Shown here: piece by piece, positions 28,504-63,371 of the stretch | Layout: every line of letters starts with the position of its first letter | How positions within the stretch are numbered: position 1 is the first letter of the stretch | NCBI GenBank assembly: GCA_029210875.1 | Contig: JARGFJ010000007.1 | Coordinates: 1-64,000, forward strand | Direction: 5' to 3' | DNA from: Gammaproteobacteria bacterium | GTDB taxonomy: Bacteria; Pseudomonadota; Gammaproteobacteria; Nitrosococcales; Methylophagaceae | DNA length: 64,000 nt | Made by a program: the position numbers and the translations under genes | Notes under the pieces: generated by a model | What the model saw: only the letters and a program-made list of their open reading frames with translations | Databases searched by the model: none | What the model was told of the DNA's origin: nothing

Positions 28504-29193
28504 TTAATCTGGCAATGAGTGCATGGCGTTGCTAATCGTTTCGACCCGATTTAATTCTATCTGAGCCGTTCTATGTCTGGCTTCACACAATGCGCTTCTA
28601 AAACCAAGATAGTCTGCAGCTAAAGGCTTGAGCGTAGCAATATCCTCATGGCGTAATGCACCCGCTAAACCACATAACAAACCTTGCTCTTGTATCGTAT
28701 TGACAAACGTTTGCAACTTTAAGCGATCCCAGTGATCCAATAAATGCTGTCCATTTTTAAGCGCGGTATCAACCATCACCCCTTGAAAACCGACTGTTTT
28801 CAGAACAGGCCATATTGCTTTAGCTACTGGTTTATCAGCAAATAATACGGCAATAACAGGTGTTTTTAGTTTATGAAGCGTATCCGCTAAAGCTGCAAGA
28901 CAATGCTGCAAATTGGCAGCGGGAAACAGGCCAATTTTGACAAAATCCACACCACTACTCGCCATCTCTATTATCGCTGGCTTTATTACATTCACCTCCA
29001 TGGCTAAATCGCCAATGGTGGCACTGGTTTGACAACGTTTCGCTACAAAGCTGACAATATCGGCAACCTCGGCCACTGTTAAAGCCCCTAAAGCCCCTCT
29101 GGAAGGATCTTTCATATCTAAAATATCGGGGAATACAGGCTCTAATAACTTTGCTTCTTGTAGAGACTTTATACTGGCAAGCCATTTAGTCAT
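28504..29193 (-). CDS. mfnB: (5-formylfuran-3-yl)methyl phosphate synthase (MfnB-like)
   Basis: 229 residues of the DUF556/MfnB TIM-barrel family. In methanogens MfnB condenses two glyceraldehyde-3-phosphate molecules to the furan precursor of methanofuran. Family signs are ILDMKDPSRGALGAL (with the Schiff-base lysine region), SATIGDLAMEV, VDFVKIGLF and LCGLAGALRHEDI. It overlaps the DUF447 gene by 8 bases (ATGACTAA). Methylotrophs with Fhc are known to carry it for a methanofuran-like cofactor. Confidence 0.9.
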   Translation of the reverse strand: MTKWLASIKSLQEAKLLEPVFPDILDMKDPSRGALGALTVAEVADIVSFVAKRCQTSATIGDLAMEVNVIKPAIIEMASSGVDFVKIGLFPAANLQHCLAALADTLHKLKTPVIAVLFADKPVAKAIWPVLKTVGFQGVMVDTALKNGQHLLDHWDRLKLQTFVNTIQEQGLLCGLAGALRHEDIATLKPLAADYLGFRSALCEARHRTAQIELNRVETISNAMHSLPD

Positions 29194-29770
29194 GCTTTAA
29201 CTCAATTCCTGCTTCATCAATCTTATTGATCAACCAGCCCCATGCCTCACGTTCGCACGGACCAGCCGTTTTTTCAATTGCTATCATTAAATACGCCATT
29301 TCCTGTTGAATTTTTTCGACCGGTAACATATGCAGACGACTAACTAAAACAGCAGCATCAATCACGGCACTTTGGGCGCGATTAAACCCTCTAAAAGGCC
29401 GATGATTAACATCACAAATAACACGGCCATAAAAACAGGCTCGAGGATCATCATCCTCGAAAGAGGTAATCTCTAACTCGGTATGGGCTAAAGCCTGCTC
29501 TAAATAAAAACCTTCAATTTGTTGACAAGGCAGGGTGGGCCAGTCACGTCGCCCAGTTAGTGATCCTGCAAAGATACGTACATCATCGGTATAGTTGATA
29601 GTACATTGTCGATGGCGCTTTAAATTTTCGTAGGTGGATGAAGGTTTAAAAGGCTTAATAACGAAGTAACCATTTACTTCGGAAATACCCATCGGCGCAG
29701 AATGAGGCTTACCATCATCCGATAATGTCGTCACAATAACTTCATGAATTTTACTTTCAAGCAGTGCCAC
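29186..29770 (-). CDS. DUF447 family protein of the H4MPT gene set
   Basis: 194 residues of the DUF447 family, a split-barrel flavin-binding-like fold found in methanogens and H4MPT methylotrophs. The N-terminus (IHEVIVTTLSDDGKPHSAPMG) looks like an FMN-binding split barrel. A GTG start at 29770 is inferred; it overlaps the upstream gene by 14 bases and follows an AGGA. Biochemical function is not established. Cofactor biosynthesis is inferred from neighbours on both sides. Confidence 0.8.
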   Translation of the reverse strand: MALLESKIHEVIVTTLSDDGKPHSAPMGISEVNGYFVIKPFKPSSTYENLKRHRQCTINYTDDVRIFAGSLTGRRDWPTLPCQQIEGFYLEQALAHTELEITSFEDDDPRACFYGRVICDVNHRPFRGFNRAQSAVIDAAVLVSRLHMLPVEKIQQEMAYLMIAIEKTAGPCEREAWGWLINKIDEAGIELKHD

Positions 29771-31166
29771 ATTTTTTTCCTGTTGTTAGTGTTGTGCCCT
29801 CAGCGGTTTGCTGGGTCAGGTCTTCTGGCTCTGAATCCACAGCACAACCCCATTTGAGTTCTTCATCCTGGTTATAACGCTTGCCTAATTGCCAAGCAAT
29901 TTGTGCTCGCGCCAACTCCGCACCTAAATAAAATGCATGGCCAGTATCACCGTCTAATTTAAGCTGTGGATAGAATGCAAAAGGATCACTTTCCTGCATT
30001 AAACCATCACGATTGAACATAAAGATACCTTGCTCTGCAACTTTAATGCGAAAGTTGGGATCTTTGATATTCTCAGCTAATGCAGCGATATCTTCGGCAC
30101 TATCAGGAAATGGTCTACGTTCATGTGCAACCAACAAATCAGCACTGAAATCTCGTGGCAAAGCACTGTCTTCACGTGCAGCATACATCATTCTTCGTGC
30201 TACATTTGCTTCTTTTATTGCCATCCGAGCGTGAGGACTCACTTCCGTTGCAAGCACGTTATTTATATTAAGTTCAGAAATTATTCCAAACAAAATCGCA
30301 TTAATGCCGCTGGTATCTGCATCCGTTAATTCTGTCAGATTACCCACGCCCATCATGATCGCGGCATCAGGATATTGTCGCCGCAGTTCATGATAACGAA
30401 CTATCGAACTGGTTAAACCAAAATGGATTGGATCTAAAATTGGATCTGCAATCCATGGTCGATTTATTTTATCCATTAATTCCATCGCTCGTTCGAGCGA
30501 GGCTAATGAACCCATTTCAGCAGGTACTAAAATGGGAACAGCATCTGTTTCTTCTGCTAAACGGTAGGTTTTTTCGGTCAAACTTAATAAATAGTCAGCG
30601 CCCGCTTTACCGGCACGCTTCAAATCACCTCGCTCCAAAGAATCGACACTGACTTTAAAACCTGACTCATGCAATGCAACAATTGCATCTTCAAGATGAG
30701 GGAACACTTGTTGGGGCAGGCAGCCAATATCGATTACATCTGCACCTGATTGTCTATAGTAATTTGCCCTATCTAAAATGCCAGCAATATCACGTTCGGG
30801 CGCATCAACTATTTCGGCAAAGATATTAACGTCGTAACGACTTAAATCACTGGCTTTACGTGTTTGACCAAAATATATCGGCAAATCTTTTACTTCATCT
30901 GGGCCGCGAATCACTGGTACTCCAAGCTGTTTACTTAAGGCATCCAAATCACCTCGGCATCGGCCTGGCACAATAATTTGATCGCTATCAGCAATTATTT
31001 CTGGCGTTAGCCGCCGCGCAATCATTTTATCTGTCATTAACGCAGCAACCGAAAGACCAAGCTGATGAACGCGAAAATCAAAAGGCAATGTTGTCATTTG
31101 TTTCAACACCTTATGCAAGCTCGGCTCGGCTAGCTTACCAGTGAGAAATAAGACTTTCTTTACCAT
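29757..31166 (-). CDS. Dihydropteroate synthase-like protein of H4MPT biosynthesis
   Basis: 469 residues of the dihydropteroate-synthase-like family shared by methanogens and H4MPT-using methylotrophs. Its central TIM-barrel region contains ADVIDIGCLP and KVSVDSLERGDL, in place of the D-I/V-G-G and S-x-D-T elements of FolP, and PWIADPILDPIHFG. It likely contributes to building the methanopterin arylamine part; the precise step is not proven. The C-terminal ~110 residues end in a Thr/Lys-rich tail. The flavoprotein gene ends 5 bases upstream. Confidence 0.82.
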   Translation of the reverse strand: MVKKVLFLTGKLAEPSLHKVLKQMTTLPFDFRVHQLGLSVAALMTDKMIARRLTPEIIADSDQIIVPGRCRGDLDALSKQLGVPVIRGPDEVKDLPIYFGQTRKASDLSRYDVNIFAEIVDAPERDIAGILDRANYYRQSGADVIDIGCLPQQVFPHLEDAIVALHESGFKVSVDSLERGDLKRAGKAGADYLLSLTEKTYRLAEETDAVPILVPAEMGSLASLERAMELMDKINRPWIADPILDPIHFGLTSSIVRYHELRRQYPDAAIMMGVGNLTELTDADTSGINAILFGIISELNINNVLATEVSPHARMAIKEANVARRMMYAAREDSALPRDFSADLLVAHERRPFPDSAEDIAALAENIKDPNFRIKVAEQGIFMFNRDGLMQESDPFAFYPQLKLDGDTGHAFYLGAELARAQIAWQLGKRYNQDEELKWGCAVDSEPEDLTQQTAEGTTLTTGKKCGTA

Positions 31167-31171
31167 ATTAA

Positions 31172-31717
31172 CTAACTTATTTCTGCTAAACGCGTGCGCA
31201 ATGCGGCTACTAATTTATTTGGGTTTTCAACCACGGTCGTTGCTTCATAGGATCGTAGCTTATGGGTATGCGCTAAATCTATTTCTCTAGGCCAGACTTT
31301 AACAATACGATCTGGGGCAGGTGTATCCATTTCAGGCTCGGTATCACACGCTAACACTATACTTGGGATCCGACATTTTCCAGCTTGGGCATAGACATTA
31401 GTAACGAGCGTATCGGATAAACCTAATACCATCTTGGCTACAGTATTGGACGTGGCAGGAGCCACAACCAGCGTGTGATAATCACCACGATAAAACAGGC
31501 CAACAGGAGGAGAGCTGGCCGCCCGATCACGATACACTCTACCCGATGTTATCGCTTTAGGATCATGACCGTACATCCTTATTACTTCTTCGCCAGCCTG
31601 GCTATAAAACAAGTCAACATCATCTAAACCCCGAATGATTTCTATACATTCTTCCAGGTAATGTCCTGAGCCTGTCACCGCCCACGCTAACCTGGGTTTT
31701 TCTGGTCGTGCTTGCAT
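31172..31717 (-). CDS. Flavoprotein, dihydromethanopterin reductase-like (DmrB family)
   Basis: 181 residues of the flavoprotein (HFCD/archaeoflavoprotein) family: LAWAVTGSGHYLEECIEII, LVVAPATSNTVAKMVLGLSDTLVTN and IPSIVLACDTEPEMDTP. The same fold serves as DmrB, which reduces dihydromethanopterin in Burkholderia and archaea. The H4MPT neighbours support that role, but a different pterin or furan step is possible. First gene of the four-gene operon; divergent from the NDH-2 gene. Confidence 0.8.
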   Translation of the reverse strand: MQARPEKPRLAWAVTGSGHYLEECIEIIRGLDDVDLFYSQAGEEVIRMYGHDPKAITSGRVYRDRAASSPPVGLFYRGDYHTLVVAPATSNTVAKMVLGLSDTLVTNVYAQAGKCRIPSIVLACDTEPEMDTPAPDRIVKVWPREIDLAHTHKLRSYEATTVVENPNKLVAALRTRLAEIS

Positions 31718-33903: not shown

Positions 33904-36324
<2,421 letters not shown>

Positions 36325-36416: not shown

Positions 36417-37502
36417 CTACTCGACCAATTGTCCATGTTTCACGTGAAACACTTTATGTGCAATTTCTTTTATTCGTTCAGATAATGAAAAATCTGTTGT
36501 TGTTATGAAACATTGGGCCGGTGATCGAGATAGCTCTTTCAGTACCAATAATTGATGATGAACATCTAGTTCAGAACTCAGATCATCAATAAGTAAAAGC
36601 GAGCTACTTTTATCTGAACCACCACCAGCCTTATTAGTAATATTTGTTTGCGCCAAGGATAACGCTATAAAATACAGCTTCTGTTGACCCCTTGATAATA
36701 TTTCGGCTGGGTCGCCATCGTTTATTTTTATTATCCAATCGGCAGCATGACTACCACATTTGGTGTACAGCAATTGTTTGTCACGTTCTAAACTGTCAAT
36801 CAGTGCCTGTTGAAGCGATGAAGCTTTTGTCCAGCCATTTTTATATTTTGTTGTGAACTCTGACCCTTTTAGTTCAGGGCACAACCTGGTAAACACATTT
36901 GTAAACTCTTGTAACAACTGTGCTAAATAACTGACGCGATAATTGGTAATCGTTTCGCCATGTAATGCATATTGATGATCCCACAGTCTAATCTCATCAT
37001 TATTCTTACGCTGTCGCAAAGCTGAATTACGTTGTTGAACAATTTTTTTATAGGATTGCCAATGATAATTAAACTGATGTTCCACGTGAAACAGCCCCCA
37101 ATCAAGTAGCTGACGACGATAACGAGGGCCTTGCTCAAATATGTGATGACAGTTAGCCGGAATAAATTGCAAGGGAAGATGTGTCACAAGTTCAGACAAC
37201 TTATTAACCGGCGCGCTATTTAATCGGATTTTCAATCCGGAAGACAAGGAGTACTCAAGTCCAATCGGAATATCGTTCGGCATTTTTGCAAGAACAAGAC
37301 TGCGTTGCTGACTAAATTGAACAACATTTTTTAAAGCGCGCGTACGAAAAGAACGGCCCAAAGCAAGTAGATGAATCGCTTCGAGCAGTGTTGTTTTACC
37401 AGATCCATTATCACCAATAATTAAATTGATTCCACAGGAGGGGATAAAATTTAGCTCAGTTATATTTCTCAGATTAGAAATACTGAGTTGTGTAAGCACC
37501 AA
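36417..37502 (-). CDS. recF: DNA replication and repair protein RecF
   Basis: 361 residues, ABC/SMC-type ATPase: SISNLRNITELNF, Walker A GDNGSGKTTLLEAIH, signature LSRGQQKLYFIALSL, Walker B LLLIDDLSSELD. Loads RecA on gaps. The start is a TTG (37502) or GTG (37499); GGAA upstream fits the TTG better. Two perfect parS-type palindromes lie within the gene, encoding FHVKH and FHVEH. The next gene upstream is a rubredoxin reductase, not dnaN. Confidence 0.96.
   Translation of the reverse strand: MVLTQLSISNLRNITELNFIPSCGINLIIGDNGSGKTTLLEAIHLLALGRSFRTRALKNVVQFSQQRSLVLAKMPNDIPIGLEYSLSSGLKIRLNSAPVNKLSELVTHLPLQFIPANCHHIFEQGPRYRRQLLDWGLFHVEHQFNYHWQSYKKIVQQRNSALRQRKNNDEIRLWDHQYALHGETITNYRVSYLAQLLQEFTNVFTRLCPELKGSEFTTKYKNGWTKASSLQQALIDSLERDKQLLYTKCGSHAADWIIKINDGDPAEILSRGQQKLYFIALSLAQTNITNKAGGGSDKSSSLLLIDDLSSELDVHHQLLVLKELSRSPAQCFITTTDFSLSERIKEIAHKVFHVKHGQLVE
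36436..36451. other. parS-like centromere site 1 (inside recF)
   Basis: TGTTTCACGTGAAACA is a perfect 16-bp palindrome and a known form of the bacterial ParB-binding site parS. It lies in the last codons of recF. ParB binding is inferred from sequence identity with the established consensus. Confidence 0.85.
37078..37093. other. parS-like centromere site 2 (inside recF)
   Basis: TGTTCCACGTGAAACA is identical to the classical Bacillus subtilis parS consensus. It lies within recF, 642 bases from the first site. Two such 16-mers in one gene are very unlikely by chance. Confidence 0.88.
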
Positions 37503-54169: not shown

Positions 54170-54384
54170 CAGACTTATAAAAAGGATCATAAGTTGTGGA
54201 TAACTTTAGCTGTGGATAACTATCAACTTTATCCACAAGAGATCCGCCTGATCAGCTTAAACTTATCAACACCAAAGATCAGCTTTAACATGATGAAAAA
54301 TATAAATATATAAATCTTATACAGTTACACACAGGCAATAATCATCAACATCTTTTATCTTTTAAATACTTCTAATTATTATTA
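54170..54384. other. DnaA-box cluster, candidate replication origin
   Basis: Three perfect 9-mer DnaA boxes lie within 43 bases: TGTGGATAA at 54195-54203 and 54211-54219, and TTATCCACA at 54229-54237. A near match TTATCAACA is at 54263-54271 and a weaker TTACACACA at 54325-54333. Four GATC sites fall between 54185 and 54280. GATCAGCTTAAAC and GATCAGCTTTAAC form a direct repeat (54250, 54277). The rest to 54384 is strongly AT-rich, as an unwinding region would be. It could instead be a DnaA-titrating or DnaA-regulated promoter for priA. Confidence 0.6.
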
Positions 54385-59132: not shown

Positions 59133-59510
59133 ATGTCTGAACAAACAGAAAAAACATATTCTGAACAAGAGATAGCCCAAAAATTAGCAGATGAATTGCC
59201 TCATTGGTTTTTTGAAAATGGCTGGATCCGCCGAAAATATAAAACCAGTGGCTGGAAAGGCACGTTAATGGTGGTGAATACGGTCGGACATCTAGCGGAA
59301 GCCGCGTGGCATCATCCTGATTTAACCGTGTCTTATGCGTTTGTCGTTGTTAAATTAACAACGCATAGTGCCAAAGGCATTACCGATAAAGATTTTGAAT
59401 TAGCTAAAAAAATTGAAGCGGTCGTGCAGTGGCAGCCGGCCTTACAACAAGGCTGTGCACTTGAAGGCACACCTTCTGATCCACGTTTTAAGTACATTAA
59501 GTACGATTAA
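59133..59510 (+). CDS. Pterin-4a-carbinolamine dehydratase-like protein
   Basis: 125 residues of the PCD/DCoH family. The catalytic histidines are present in AAWHHPDLTVSYAFV and KLTTHSAKGITDKDFELA. No aromatic amino acid hydroxylase is next to it; it precedes fhcB by 10 bases. A role on methanopterin or in the Fhc operon is inferred; the classical tetrahydrobiopterin recycling role is less likely here. Confidence 0.85.
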   Translation: MSEQTEKTYSEQEIAQKLADELPHWFFENGWIRRKYKTSGWKGTLMVVNTVGHLAEAAWHHPDLTVSYAFVVVKLTTHSAKGITDKDFELAKKIEAVVQWQPALQQGCALEGTPSDPRFKYIKYD

Positions 59511-59520
59511 AGGTACCAAG

Positions 59521-60795
59521 ATGACAGAAATGACCGAACCAGGTATTTGGCAAGAGGTGCCAAGCCCTTTTTGTGGGATTGCTTCTGATGATCTCGTGAT
59601 AAAAGTTGATGGTAATGATGTCACTATTTTAGAAAATGGTGATGATATTACCAAAGCAGGCTTTGAAACAGCCATTACCGATCTGTCTCCCAGATTTAAC
59701 GGTAGAGATGTGTCATTAGATGAGGCTGTATCTCATGCTGCACAGTTAATTCGTGATGCAAAACAACCTGTTATTGGCGGTTTAGCAACAGACTTAAACG
59801 GTTGTCGCGCAGCCATGGCGTTAGCAGATAAAAGTCGTGCTACAGTTGATAATATGGATTCAACAGCGACCTTCCGTAATTTGTTGGTATTGCAAGATAC
59901 CGGTTGGATGACAACAACATTAACCGAAGTTCGTAATCGCGTTGATGTATTGTTAGTGGTTGGAACTGATATTGAATCTGATTTCCCCCGTTTTTATGAA
60001 CGTATGGTGTGGAATAAAGAAAGTATGTTTAACCAAGATATCGAATCACGCCAAGTGATTTATCTTGGTAAAACACCGTCAGGTGACGCTTCAACTTCAC
60101 CAAAAGGCAAAAAAGCTCAGGTGTTAGCGTGTGACGATGCTGATCTGCCAGAAGTATTATCCGTATTAAGAGCCTTGATTAAAGGCAAACTGATTCAGGC
60201 AAAACAAGTGGGTGGACTTGCTGTATCTGACTTAGAGGCTTTAGCTGAAACATTAAAACAAGCAAAATATTCAGTAGTGACCTGGTCAGCGGGTAATCTT
60301 GATTTTGATCATGCTGAAACCAGTGTGCAAATGATCTGTGAATTAGTTAAAGATCTTAATTTAAAAACACGTTCAAGTGGTTTGCCTTTAGGTGGCCGTG
60401 ATGGTGCGATGACTGCGAATCAAGTTTCGGCATGGCAATCAGGTTATCCAATGCGTACCAATTTTAGTCGGGGTTTCCCCGATTACGATCCTTATCTTTC
60501 TGATAGCAACCGTATGTTGGTTAATGGTGAAGTTGATACCTTGGTTTGGGTGTCGAGTTTTAATGTACAACGCACACCACCACAATCTTTGGCTAAAACG
60601 ATTGTGATTGGTCGCTCAGGTATGACGTTTGAACAAGAACCTGAGGTATTTATTCCGGTTGGTGTACCAGGTATTGATCATGTCGGTCGTACTTTCCGCT
60701 TAGATAGTGTGGTTTCAATACCTTTAAGAAAATTACGCGACAGTGGTTTACCTAGTACACATGATGTACTAACTGCTATCGAAAACGCCTTATAA
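59521..60795 (+). CDS. fhcB: Formyltransferase/hydrolase complex subunit FhcB
   Basis: 424 residues, related to formylmethanofuran dehydrogenase subunit B. Features: SPFCGIASDDL at the start, PVIGGLATDLNGCRAAMALADKSRATVDNMDS, and RSSGLPLGGRDGAMTANQVSAWQSGYPMR. The first segment keeps one cysteine where the methanogen subunit has an iron-sulfur cysteine cluster, fitting the known loss of redox function in Fhc. ATG 59521 with AAAGG upstream is chosen over a reading that overlaps the previous gene. Confidence 0.93.
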   Translation: MTEMTEPGIWQEVPSPFCGIASDDLVIKVDGNDVTILENGDDITKAGFETAITDLSPRFNGRDVSLDEAVSHAAQLIRDAKQPVIGGLATDLNGCRAAMALADKSRATVDNMDSTATFRNLLVLQDTGWMTTTLTEVRNRVDVLLVVGTDIESDFPRFYERMVWNKESMFNQDIESRQVIYLGKTPSGDASTSPKGKKAQVLACDDADLPEVLSVLRALIKGKLIQAKQVGGLAVSDLEALAETLKQAKYSVVTWSAGNLDFDHAETSVQMICELVKDLNLKTRSSGLPLGGRDGAMTANQVSAWQSGYPMRTNFSRGFPDYDPYLSDSNRMLVNGEVDTLVWVSSFNVQRTPPQSLAKTIVIGRSGMTFEQEPEVFIPVGVPGIDHVGRTFRLDSVVSIPLRKLRDSGLPSTHDVLTAIENAL

Positions 60796-60811
60796 GAAAC
60801 GGATAACGATT

Positions 60812-62485
60812 ATGTTAATGAAACTTACAGGTGGCAAAATCTACGATCCTGCCCATGGGATTGATGGTGAAGTCCGTGATATCTATGTACGAGATGGTCG
60901 TATTGTTGAACGACCTACCGATGTCAAATTTGATCAAGAGATTGATGTTCGTGGCAAAGTAGTGATGGCGGGTGCGATTGATATGCACACCCATATCGGT
61001 GGCGGCAAAGTCAATATTGCGCGCACCATGTTGCCAGAAGATCACGCAGCCGATGTGGTTGCCAGAACAGAATTAATGCGCTCTGGCTGTGGTCATGCTG
61101 CACCAAGCACTTTAACTGCCGGTTATCGCTATGCTGAAATGGGTTATACCGCAGGGTTTGAACCCGCTATTTTGCCGATTAATGCACGTCAAGCCCATAT
61201 GGAAATGCATGACACACCGATCATCGATAAGGGTGGTTATGTCATGTTGGGTAGTGATGATTTCCTACTACGGATGATGGCGGCAAATAATGATCAAGAA
61301 GCCATTAACAACTACGTGGCTTGGACAATGAATCACAGTCATGCTATCGGGGTTAAAGTCGTTAATCCGGGCGGTATCAATGCCTTTAAATTTAATCAAC
61401 GTAAGTTAGATTTAGATGAGAAAAACCACTATTACGGGGTAACGCCTCGCGAAATTTTATTGCGATTAGCAAGAGCCGTTAAAGAATTAGGTGTACCACA
61501 TCCACTGCATGTGCATGGTTGTAACTTGGGTGTGCCAGGTAATCTAGATACCACCATTAACACAATGGAAGGGATTGAAGGTCTGCCAATGCACATGACC
61601 CATATCCAGTTCCATAGTTATGGTACTGAGGGTGACTTTAAGTTCTCATCAGGTTCAGCTCAAATTGCTGAACAGATTAACAAACACAAAAATATCACAG
61701 TCGATGTGGGTCAGATTTTGTTTGGTCAAACCGTGACTGCATCGGGTGATAATATGCGTCAACATGCAGCACACCCTCATGCCCATCCAAATAAATGGGT
61801 GTGTATGGATATCGAATGTGATGCAGGCTGTGGTGTATTGCCATTCAAATACAAAGATCAAAGTTATGTAAATGCGTTGCAATGGATGATTGGTCTTGAA
61901 ACCTTCTTAATGGTTGATGACCCATGGCGTGTATTCTTAACAACCGATCATCCAAATGGCGCACCGTTTACCAGTTATCCACATTTGATCAAGTTGTTAA
62001 TGGATAAAACTTTCCGTAACGATGTGTTATCACAATTGCATCCAGAAGCACAAAAGGCCAGCCATTTAGCATCACTCGATCGTGAATATACCTTGTATGA
62101 AATTGCGATCATGACCCGTGCCGGTGCGGCGAAATTAGTTGGTTTGGCGGATCGTGGTCACCTAGGTGTGGGTGGTGCAGCGGATATTACGGTTTATACC
62201 GATAATCCTGATCGTGAAAAAATGTTCACCACACCAGACTATGTGTTTAAAGATGGCAACATGGTGGTTAAAGATGGGCATTTGATTGATGTGACCTGGG
62301 GAACAACCCATGTTGTTAAACCAAACTATGACATCAGCATCGAAAAACAATTAAAACCGTATTTTGACCGTTACCACACTCAAAAAATGGGCAACTTCAA
62401 AATTAGTGATGATGAAATTAGTGATGATGGACGAGGTAGTATTACAGTGCAGCCGTTACTACTGGGGGCAAAATATGATTATTAA
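60812..62485 (+). CDS. fhcA: Formyltransferase/hydrolase complex subunit FhcA
   Basis: 557 residues, amidohydrolase fold related to FwdA/FmdA. Metal-site histidines are in IDMHTHIGGG, HPLHVHGCNLG, MHMTHIQFHSYG and the aspartate in FLTTDHPNG. It hydrolyses the formyl group to formate in the complex. Overlaps fhcD by 11 bases. GGAT lies 7 bases before the ATG. Confidence 0.96.
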   Translation: MLMKLTGGKIYDPAHGIDGEVRDIYVRDGRIVERPTDVKFDQEIDVRGKVVMAGAIDMHTHIGGGKVNIARTMLPEDHAADVVARTELMRSGCGHAAPSTLTAGYRYAEMGYTAGFEPAILPINARQAHMEMHDTPIIDKGGYVMLGSDDFLLRMMAANNDQEAINNYVAWTMNHSHAIGVKVVNPGGINAFKFNQRKLDLDEKNHYYGVTPREILLRLARAVKELGVPHPLHVHGCNLGVPGNLDTTINTMEGIEGLPMHMTHIQFHSYGTEGDFKFSSGSAQIAEQINKHKNITVDVGQILFGQTVTASGDNMRQHAAHPHAHPNKWVCMDIECDAGCGVLPFKYKDQSYVNALQWMIGLETFLMVDDPWRVFLTTDHPNGAPFTSYPHLIKLLMDKTFRNDVLSQLHPEAQKASHLASLDREYTLYEIAIMTRAGAAKLVGLADRGHLGVGGAADITVYTDNPDREKMFTTPDYVFKDGNMVVKDGHLIDVTWGTTHVVKPNYDISIEKQLKPYFDRYHTQKMGNFKISDDEISDDGRGSITVQPLLLGAKYDY

Positions 62486-63371
62486 TGGCGTAACAATTGA
62501 TCCTACCTTTGCTGAAGCGTTTCCGATGAAAGGTACCCGAATCATTATTACGGCACACAATGCTAAATGGGCAATGATTTCTGCACAAGCCTTTACCGGT
62601 TTTGCAACATCCGTTATTGCCTGTGGTTGCGAAGCGGGTATTGAACGTGAGCTTGATCCTTCAGAAACCCCTGATGGTCGTCATGGTGTGGCTGTACTGA
62701 TTTTCGCGATGGGCGGAAAAGGCCTGGCAAAACAAGTTGAAACGCGCGCTGGGCAGTGTGTTTTAACGTCACCTACATCCGCTTTGTTTTCAGGAATTGA
62801 CGGCGAAATAGAAATGGCATTAGGCCAAAACCTACGCTTCTTTGGTGATGGTTTCCAAATTTCTAAAATGATCGATGGTAAACGTTATTGGCGTATTCCG
62901 GTAATGGATGGTGAATTCTTGACCCAAGAAAAAACCGGTGTTGTTAGCTCGGTCGGTGGTGGTAACTTCTTAGTGTTAGCCGAATCACAAGCCCAAGCCT
63001 TGGCCGCCTGTGAAGCTGCAATTGAACAAATGAGAAAAATTCCAAACGTGATCATGCCGTTCCCAGGTGGTGTTGTTCGCTCAGGTTCAAAAGTCGGCTC
63101 TAAATATAAAGCATTGAATGCTTCGACCAATGATGCATTTTGCCCAACCTTAAAAGGCCAAACTAACAGTGATTTATCACCCGAAGTTGAATCAGTGATG
63201 GAAATCGTTATTGATGGTTTAAGCAAGGAAGATATTGATAAAGCGATGCGGGTTGGTATTCAAGCTGTCTGTGACTTAGGCGCTGAAAATGGTATTCGTC
63301 GCATCAGTGCAGGTAACTATGGCGGTAAATTAGGGCCATTCCACTTCCATTTGCAGGAGATCATGGCATGA
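62475..63371 (+). CDS. fhcD: Formylmethanofuran:H4MPT formyltransferase subunit FhcD
   Basis: 298 residues, Ftr family. Begins MIINGVTIDPTFAEAFPMKGTR; TAHNAKWAMISAQAFTGFATSVIACGCEAGIE and FPGGVVRSGSKVGSKYKALNASTNDAFCPTL are typical. Transfers the formyl group between formyl-H4MPT and the methanofuran analogue. The reading frame opens 37 codons earlier, but Ftr homology starts at this ATG inside the fhcA tail. Confidence 0.96.
   Translation: MIINGVTIDPTFAEAFPMKGTRIIITAHNAKWAMISAQAFTGFATSVIACGCEAGIERELDPSETPDGRHGVAVLIFAMGGKGLAKQVETRAGQCVLTSPTSALFSGIDGEIEMALGQNLRFFGDGFQISKMIDGKRYWRIPVMDGEFLTQEKTGVVSSVGGGNFLVLAESQAQALAACEAAIEQMRKIPNVIMPFPGGVVRSGSKVGSKYKALNASTNDAFCPTLKGQTNSDLSPEVESVMEIVIDGLSKEDIDKAMRVGIQAVCDLGAENGIRRISAGNYGGKLGPFHFHLQEIMA

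Follow-up and report, generated by a model that had tools for sequence, protein, structure and literature searches.

The Spo0J/parS system of Bacillus subtilis uses the same 16-bp parS consensus as the sites described below, mostly at origin-proximal positions and at more sites than the genome considered here carries, and we know of no B. subtilis parS that is hosted by recF. The system of Vibrio cholerae chromosome I is, like the present one, a gammaproteobacterial chromosomal ParABS, but its parS1 sites lie at +63, +66 and +69 kb from oriC (PMC5098823), positions unlike the recF arrangement found here. In Pseudomonas aeruginosa, parS1 and parS2, the sites closest to oriC, lie within recF (PMC3909081, PMC5521831), and for segregation any one of parS1-4 is both required and enough (PMC4368675). 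Given this precedent, the parS-in-recF arrangement is itself already known, and what extends beyond it is that both sites occupy the same two codon positions in most of the genes sampled across the class, with a probable imprint on the RecF protein. A literature search, in the portions of text that it reached, found no account of such conservation throughout the class or of its mark on RecF (the comparative parS survey of Livny et al. 2007, which may report part of this, was outside its scope), and found nothing relevant on codon-level selection on parS.

The window is the whole 64,000-nucleotide stretch of DNA analysed, from a gammaproteobacterium of the Methylophagaceae, and the features on which the argument depends are as follows.

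33904 to 36321, minus strand: gyrB, downstream of recF; the recF-gyrB order is as in E. coli and in the relative G034.
36417 to 37502, minus strand: recF, host gene of sites A and B; 361 amino acids, TTG start, TIGR00611 match with E 1.3e-94.
36436 to 36451, no strand assigned: parS site A, TGTTTCACGTGAAACA, a perfect palindrome encoding VFHVKH (RecF codons 351-356).
37078 to 37093, no strand assigned: parS site B, TGTTCCACGTGAAACA (coding strand TGTTTCACGTGGAACA), encoding LFHVEH (RecF codons 137-142).
54195 to 54237, no strand assigned: three perfect DnaA boxes (TTATCCACA, at 54195, 54211 and 54229) upstream of priA; probable oriC.

Elsewhere in the window (28504-31717 and 59413-63371), genes resembling tetrahydromethanopterin-linked C1 enzymes (formyltransferase/hydrolase complex-like) were recognised by eye from their translations, which suggests a methylotroph.

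An earlier note on this DNA had placed two perfect parS 16-mers inside recF, and their coordinates, host gene and peptides were confirmed. Both are 16-bp near-palindromes matching the consensus TGTTNCACGTGNAACA of chromosomal ParABS systems, so that "perfect" stands for the consensus; as palindromes, it stands for site A but not for site B, which has one asymmetry (C at position 5, A at position 12). With one further codon the encoded peptides are VFHVKHG (A, codons 351-357) and LFHVEHQ (B, codons 137-143). A search of the whole 2.44-Mb draft genome found these two as the only exact matches, both in recF, excluding an even spread over the chromosome, and a genome-wide control with the reversed pattern gave no zero-mismatch match. 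When two mismatches were allowed there were 7/8 matches compared to 5/3 for the reversed pattern, and so only exact matches are informative. This near-control level is all that speaks for a 16-bp palindrome arising by chance, an explanation that we regard as extremely improbable, given that the sites are unique in the genome, that two fall in one gene and that they recur at the same codons class-wide (see below), a recurrence that already refutes it.

A parB gene, on whose presence the centromere reading of the earlier note depended, was found within a parA-parB operon (gidA-gidB-parA-parB, followed by atp genes, on contig C40). The predicted recognition helix of its product, GRSRAAVSN, aligns with those of other gammaproteobacterial ParB proteins and keeps the residues aligned with the Caulobacter ParB parS contacts G170, S172, R173 and N178, with R in place of K171 (contacts from PMC7383237). 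The genome is a draft of 93 contigs in which parAB and dnaA are on contigs other than that bearing the parS sites; dnaA-dnaN is on contig C34, where the next gene is convergent and is not recF, showing that the recF-gyrB of the window is separated from dnaN.

The DnaA-box cluster beside priA is the probable oriC. The nearer parS site is 17.1 kb from it, bearing out the roughly 17 kb given earlier, and both sites are within 18 kb. Along the 71.9-kb contig the cumulative GC skew is lowest at about 42-44 kb, near the two sites, and dips again at 54 kb. This layout is repeated in the near-closed relative G034, where a three-box DnaA cluster upstream of priA (362793-362835) lies at the skew switch (sign change between about 360 and 375 kb) and the recF parS sites lie at 375.1 and 375.7 kb, all within about 15 kb, while parB (292 kb, about 80 kb away) and dnaA (149.5 kb, about 225 kb away) are distant, so that the recF parS sites are origin-proximal. 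The distance from recF in the relatives G019, G034 and G035 is about 114-225 kb for dnaA and about 80-95 kb for parB. In this family the origin cluster of other bacteria is split, and its parS-bearing recF-gyrB part adjoins the probable origin.

The locus thus resembles that of P. aeruginosa, at the level of the gene, in having two parS sites in recF near oriC, the 16-bp consensus and a gid-linked parAB operon. P. aeruginosa differs in having ten putative parS sites, including the intergenic parS3/4, compared to only two exact sites here, and in keeping a dnaA-dnaN-recF-gyrB operon, whereas here dnaA-dnaN and parAB are elsewhere and the probable oriC is beside priA.

In an alignment of recF codons from 50 relatives, with RecF identity down to about 31%, the two sites hold the same codon positions, mostly as exact or near-exact matches, and share the motif xFHV[EK]x at codons 137-142 and 351-356. 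A class-level sample, in which recF was found with TIGR00611, yielded 131 intact gammaproteobacterial genes, of which 117 carry at least one site with no more than one mismatch, 89 carry two such sites and 91 carry at least one exact site, the counts not being independent as the sampled species are related. Mismatches fall most often on the final base of the first site, where there is then a Pro codon. The remaining 14 of 131 lack a site with one mismatch or fewer, and most of those genomes have ParB. Probably, then, the presence of one or two parS sites at these codons of recF dates back to the early history of the Gammaproteobacteria. The suggestion of the earlier note that both sites had been accommodated in coding sequence (as FHVKH and FHVEH) holds and can be put more strongly: on these alignments the accommodation appears to be old and common to most of the sampled families.

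Such recurrence could also be expected if RecF itself required the FHV[EK]H peptides and parS were a by-product of conserved residues and codon usage. The peptides are indeed kept in RecF proteins that are about 31-40% identical, and LFHVEH is easily spelled as a near-parS (one exact site arose in 4% of synonymous-codon shuffles of the window recF). However, shuffles that preserved each gene's protein and codon usage produced on average 9.7 exact sites (never more than 17) where 130 were observed, and in none of 5000 shuffles did the window recF acquire two exact sites. When synonymous-codon bias was ranked over 167 RecF columns, the seven highest (z 8.2 to 13.3) were all parS codons, from the two sites together, compared to z 0.2 for the control, the conserved histidine of GPHRAD. 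The V or L ahead of the motif always has an NTG codon (125/125 and 65/65), and amino-acid swaps track what parS tolerates (E/K at the free base, H/Q by CAN, V/L/M), such that the E to K charge reversal is common at the free base while silent changes of CAC GTG are almost absent. One genome (G133) has, at the recF 3' end, a perfect parS that is read in a different frame (CSTWNIA), another (G155) has one at a shifted codon (AEVFHVKHG), and the RecF of Enterobacteriaceae mostly has CFHNE and MF[TSN]VEKG at these positions instead.

Sites were also kept where recF is gone. In five genomes that lack recF and belong to different families (G037, G089, G146, G156 and G169) gyrB directly follows dnaN, and the 99-262 bp dnaN-gyrB spacer contains one or two parS sites and no recognisable RecF remnant; their position suggests that they are leftovers of recF-borne sites. 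Together with the codon shuffles, the biased columns and the parS-tolerant variation, this points to selection acting on the DNA at the parS codons. Retention of parS in place without RecF is the result that counts as refuting a requirement by the RecF protein, which we consider very unlikely. With parS long resident at the same codons, selection for ParB binding would fix those codons and largely dictate the two FHV[EK] peptides, so that part of the RecF protein was probably shaped by a signal for sorting chromosomes. Two further genomes showed other arrangements: the recF-less G125 (L223/L231; C1 140083-141212) has parS in gidA and gidB and not in the dnaN-gyrB spacer, and G127 (L217; C1:2583-3900) has a recF pseudogene with several stops, a best parS-like remnant with two mismatches, and a ParB match.

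A ParB match was found in almost all sampled genomes, and the sites were compared with its presence. No parS was found in the recF of 80 Enterobacteriaceae, in which the best match anywhere in the 4-kb loci had at least two mismatches, and five of these genomes gave no, weak or far weaker ParB profile matches than the chromosomal ParB of other lineages, a comparison that covers one clade only. Enterobacteriaceae and Pasteurellaceae are described in the literature as being without chromosomal par genes (PMC3909081, PMC4368675). G265 had neither a ParB match nor a recF parS site; G182, with no ParB match, had sites with 3 and 2 mismatches, compared to 1 and 0 in its ParB-bearing congener G065; and the family f43, whose sole ParB is divergent and has a different recognition helix, had no recF site. 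There were exceptions in both directions, as recF is without a site in some ParB-bearing genomes (of which G086 and G162 have an exact site elsewhere) and the metagenome-assembled genome G144 keeps a perfect site with no detected ParB, possibly owing to an assembly gap. Apart from G144, lineages without canonical ParB (Enterobacteriaceae and others) lack recF parS sites.

In a few genomes both recF sites depart from the CACGTG core (G118, L201; G187, L167; G043, L095; G068, L212; G202, L345), for example to CATATG twice in G118 and to CACATG twice in G202. Joint loss of the core (G118, G187, G043 and G068) was seen at both sites in 4 cases, at one or the other in 1 and 1, and at neither in 90 (Fisher p 7e-6, uncorrected for relatedness). 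This may hint at an altered ParB specificity; no clear matching switch was seen in the recognition helix of the G118 ParB.

A further parS-like 16-mer, TGTTGCACGTGAAACA, occurs in gltB of at least 10 genus members (L018, L020, L023, L025, L026, L028 and L032-L035), in G011 about 12.6 kb from parB. It could be a third site or a coincidence, and we leave it unproven because it has one mismatch in the source genome (G000:C4:48543; L077 position 5544), falls within the gene of a strongly conserved enzyme and carries G as its fifth base.

From the sequence of the sites, their uniqueness, the parAB operon, origin proximity, conservation, silent-site constraint, the sites in recF-less genomes and their absence where canonical ParB is lacking, we conclude that sites A and B are very probably functional origin-proximal parS centromeres of a chromosomal ParABS system, hosted by recF, as the earlier note had proposed. 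By analogy with P. aeruginosa and with ParABS systems in general, ParB in the source organism would load at each recF parS site and spread over neighbouring DNA as a CTP-dependent clamp. The resulting ParB-DNA complex would then be carried by ParA, which would separate the newly replicated origins. ParB bound at these sites might instead chiefly regulate recF-gyrB expression or load SMC-like condensins. In line with this, excess ParB in P. aeruginosa lowers expression of the genes from recF (PA0003) to PA0015, but loss of ParB or of parS1-4 altered expression only near the intergenic parS3/4 and not near the recF sites (both from PMC5521831), and P. aeruginosa segregation needs, and is satisfied by, one origin-proximal parS (PMC4368675). 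The two recF sites are moreover the only exact ones in the source genome, and sites occur where recF has been lost, and so a chiefly regulatory or condensin-loading role seems to us a slight prospect.

Taking the centromere reading to the class as a whole, it is likely that, in the majority of Gammaproteobacteria whose ParB is canonical, part of the centromere resides at two fixed codon positions of recF, and that ParB-DNA recognition, not RecF function, explains the two conserved FHV[EK] peptides, helps to hold recF-gyrB by the origin and outlives recF where that gene is lost. If so, a segregation signal dictates part of a protein sequence across a bacterial class, and those conserved RecF residues should therefore not be read as functional in repair. 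It would also give one reason for recF staying beside the origin, make the FHV[EK] peptides a simple sequence marker of whether a functional ParB is present or has been lost, and yield predictions that are testable in laboratory strains of Pseudomonas.
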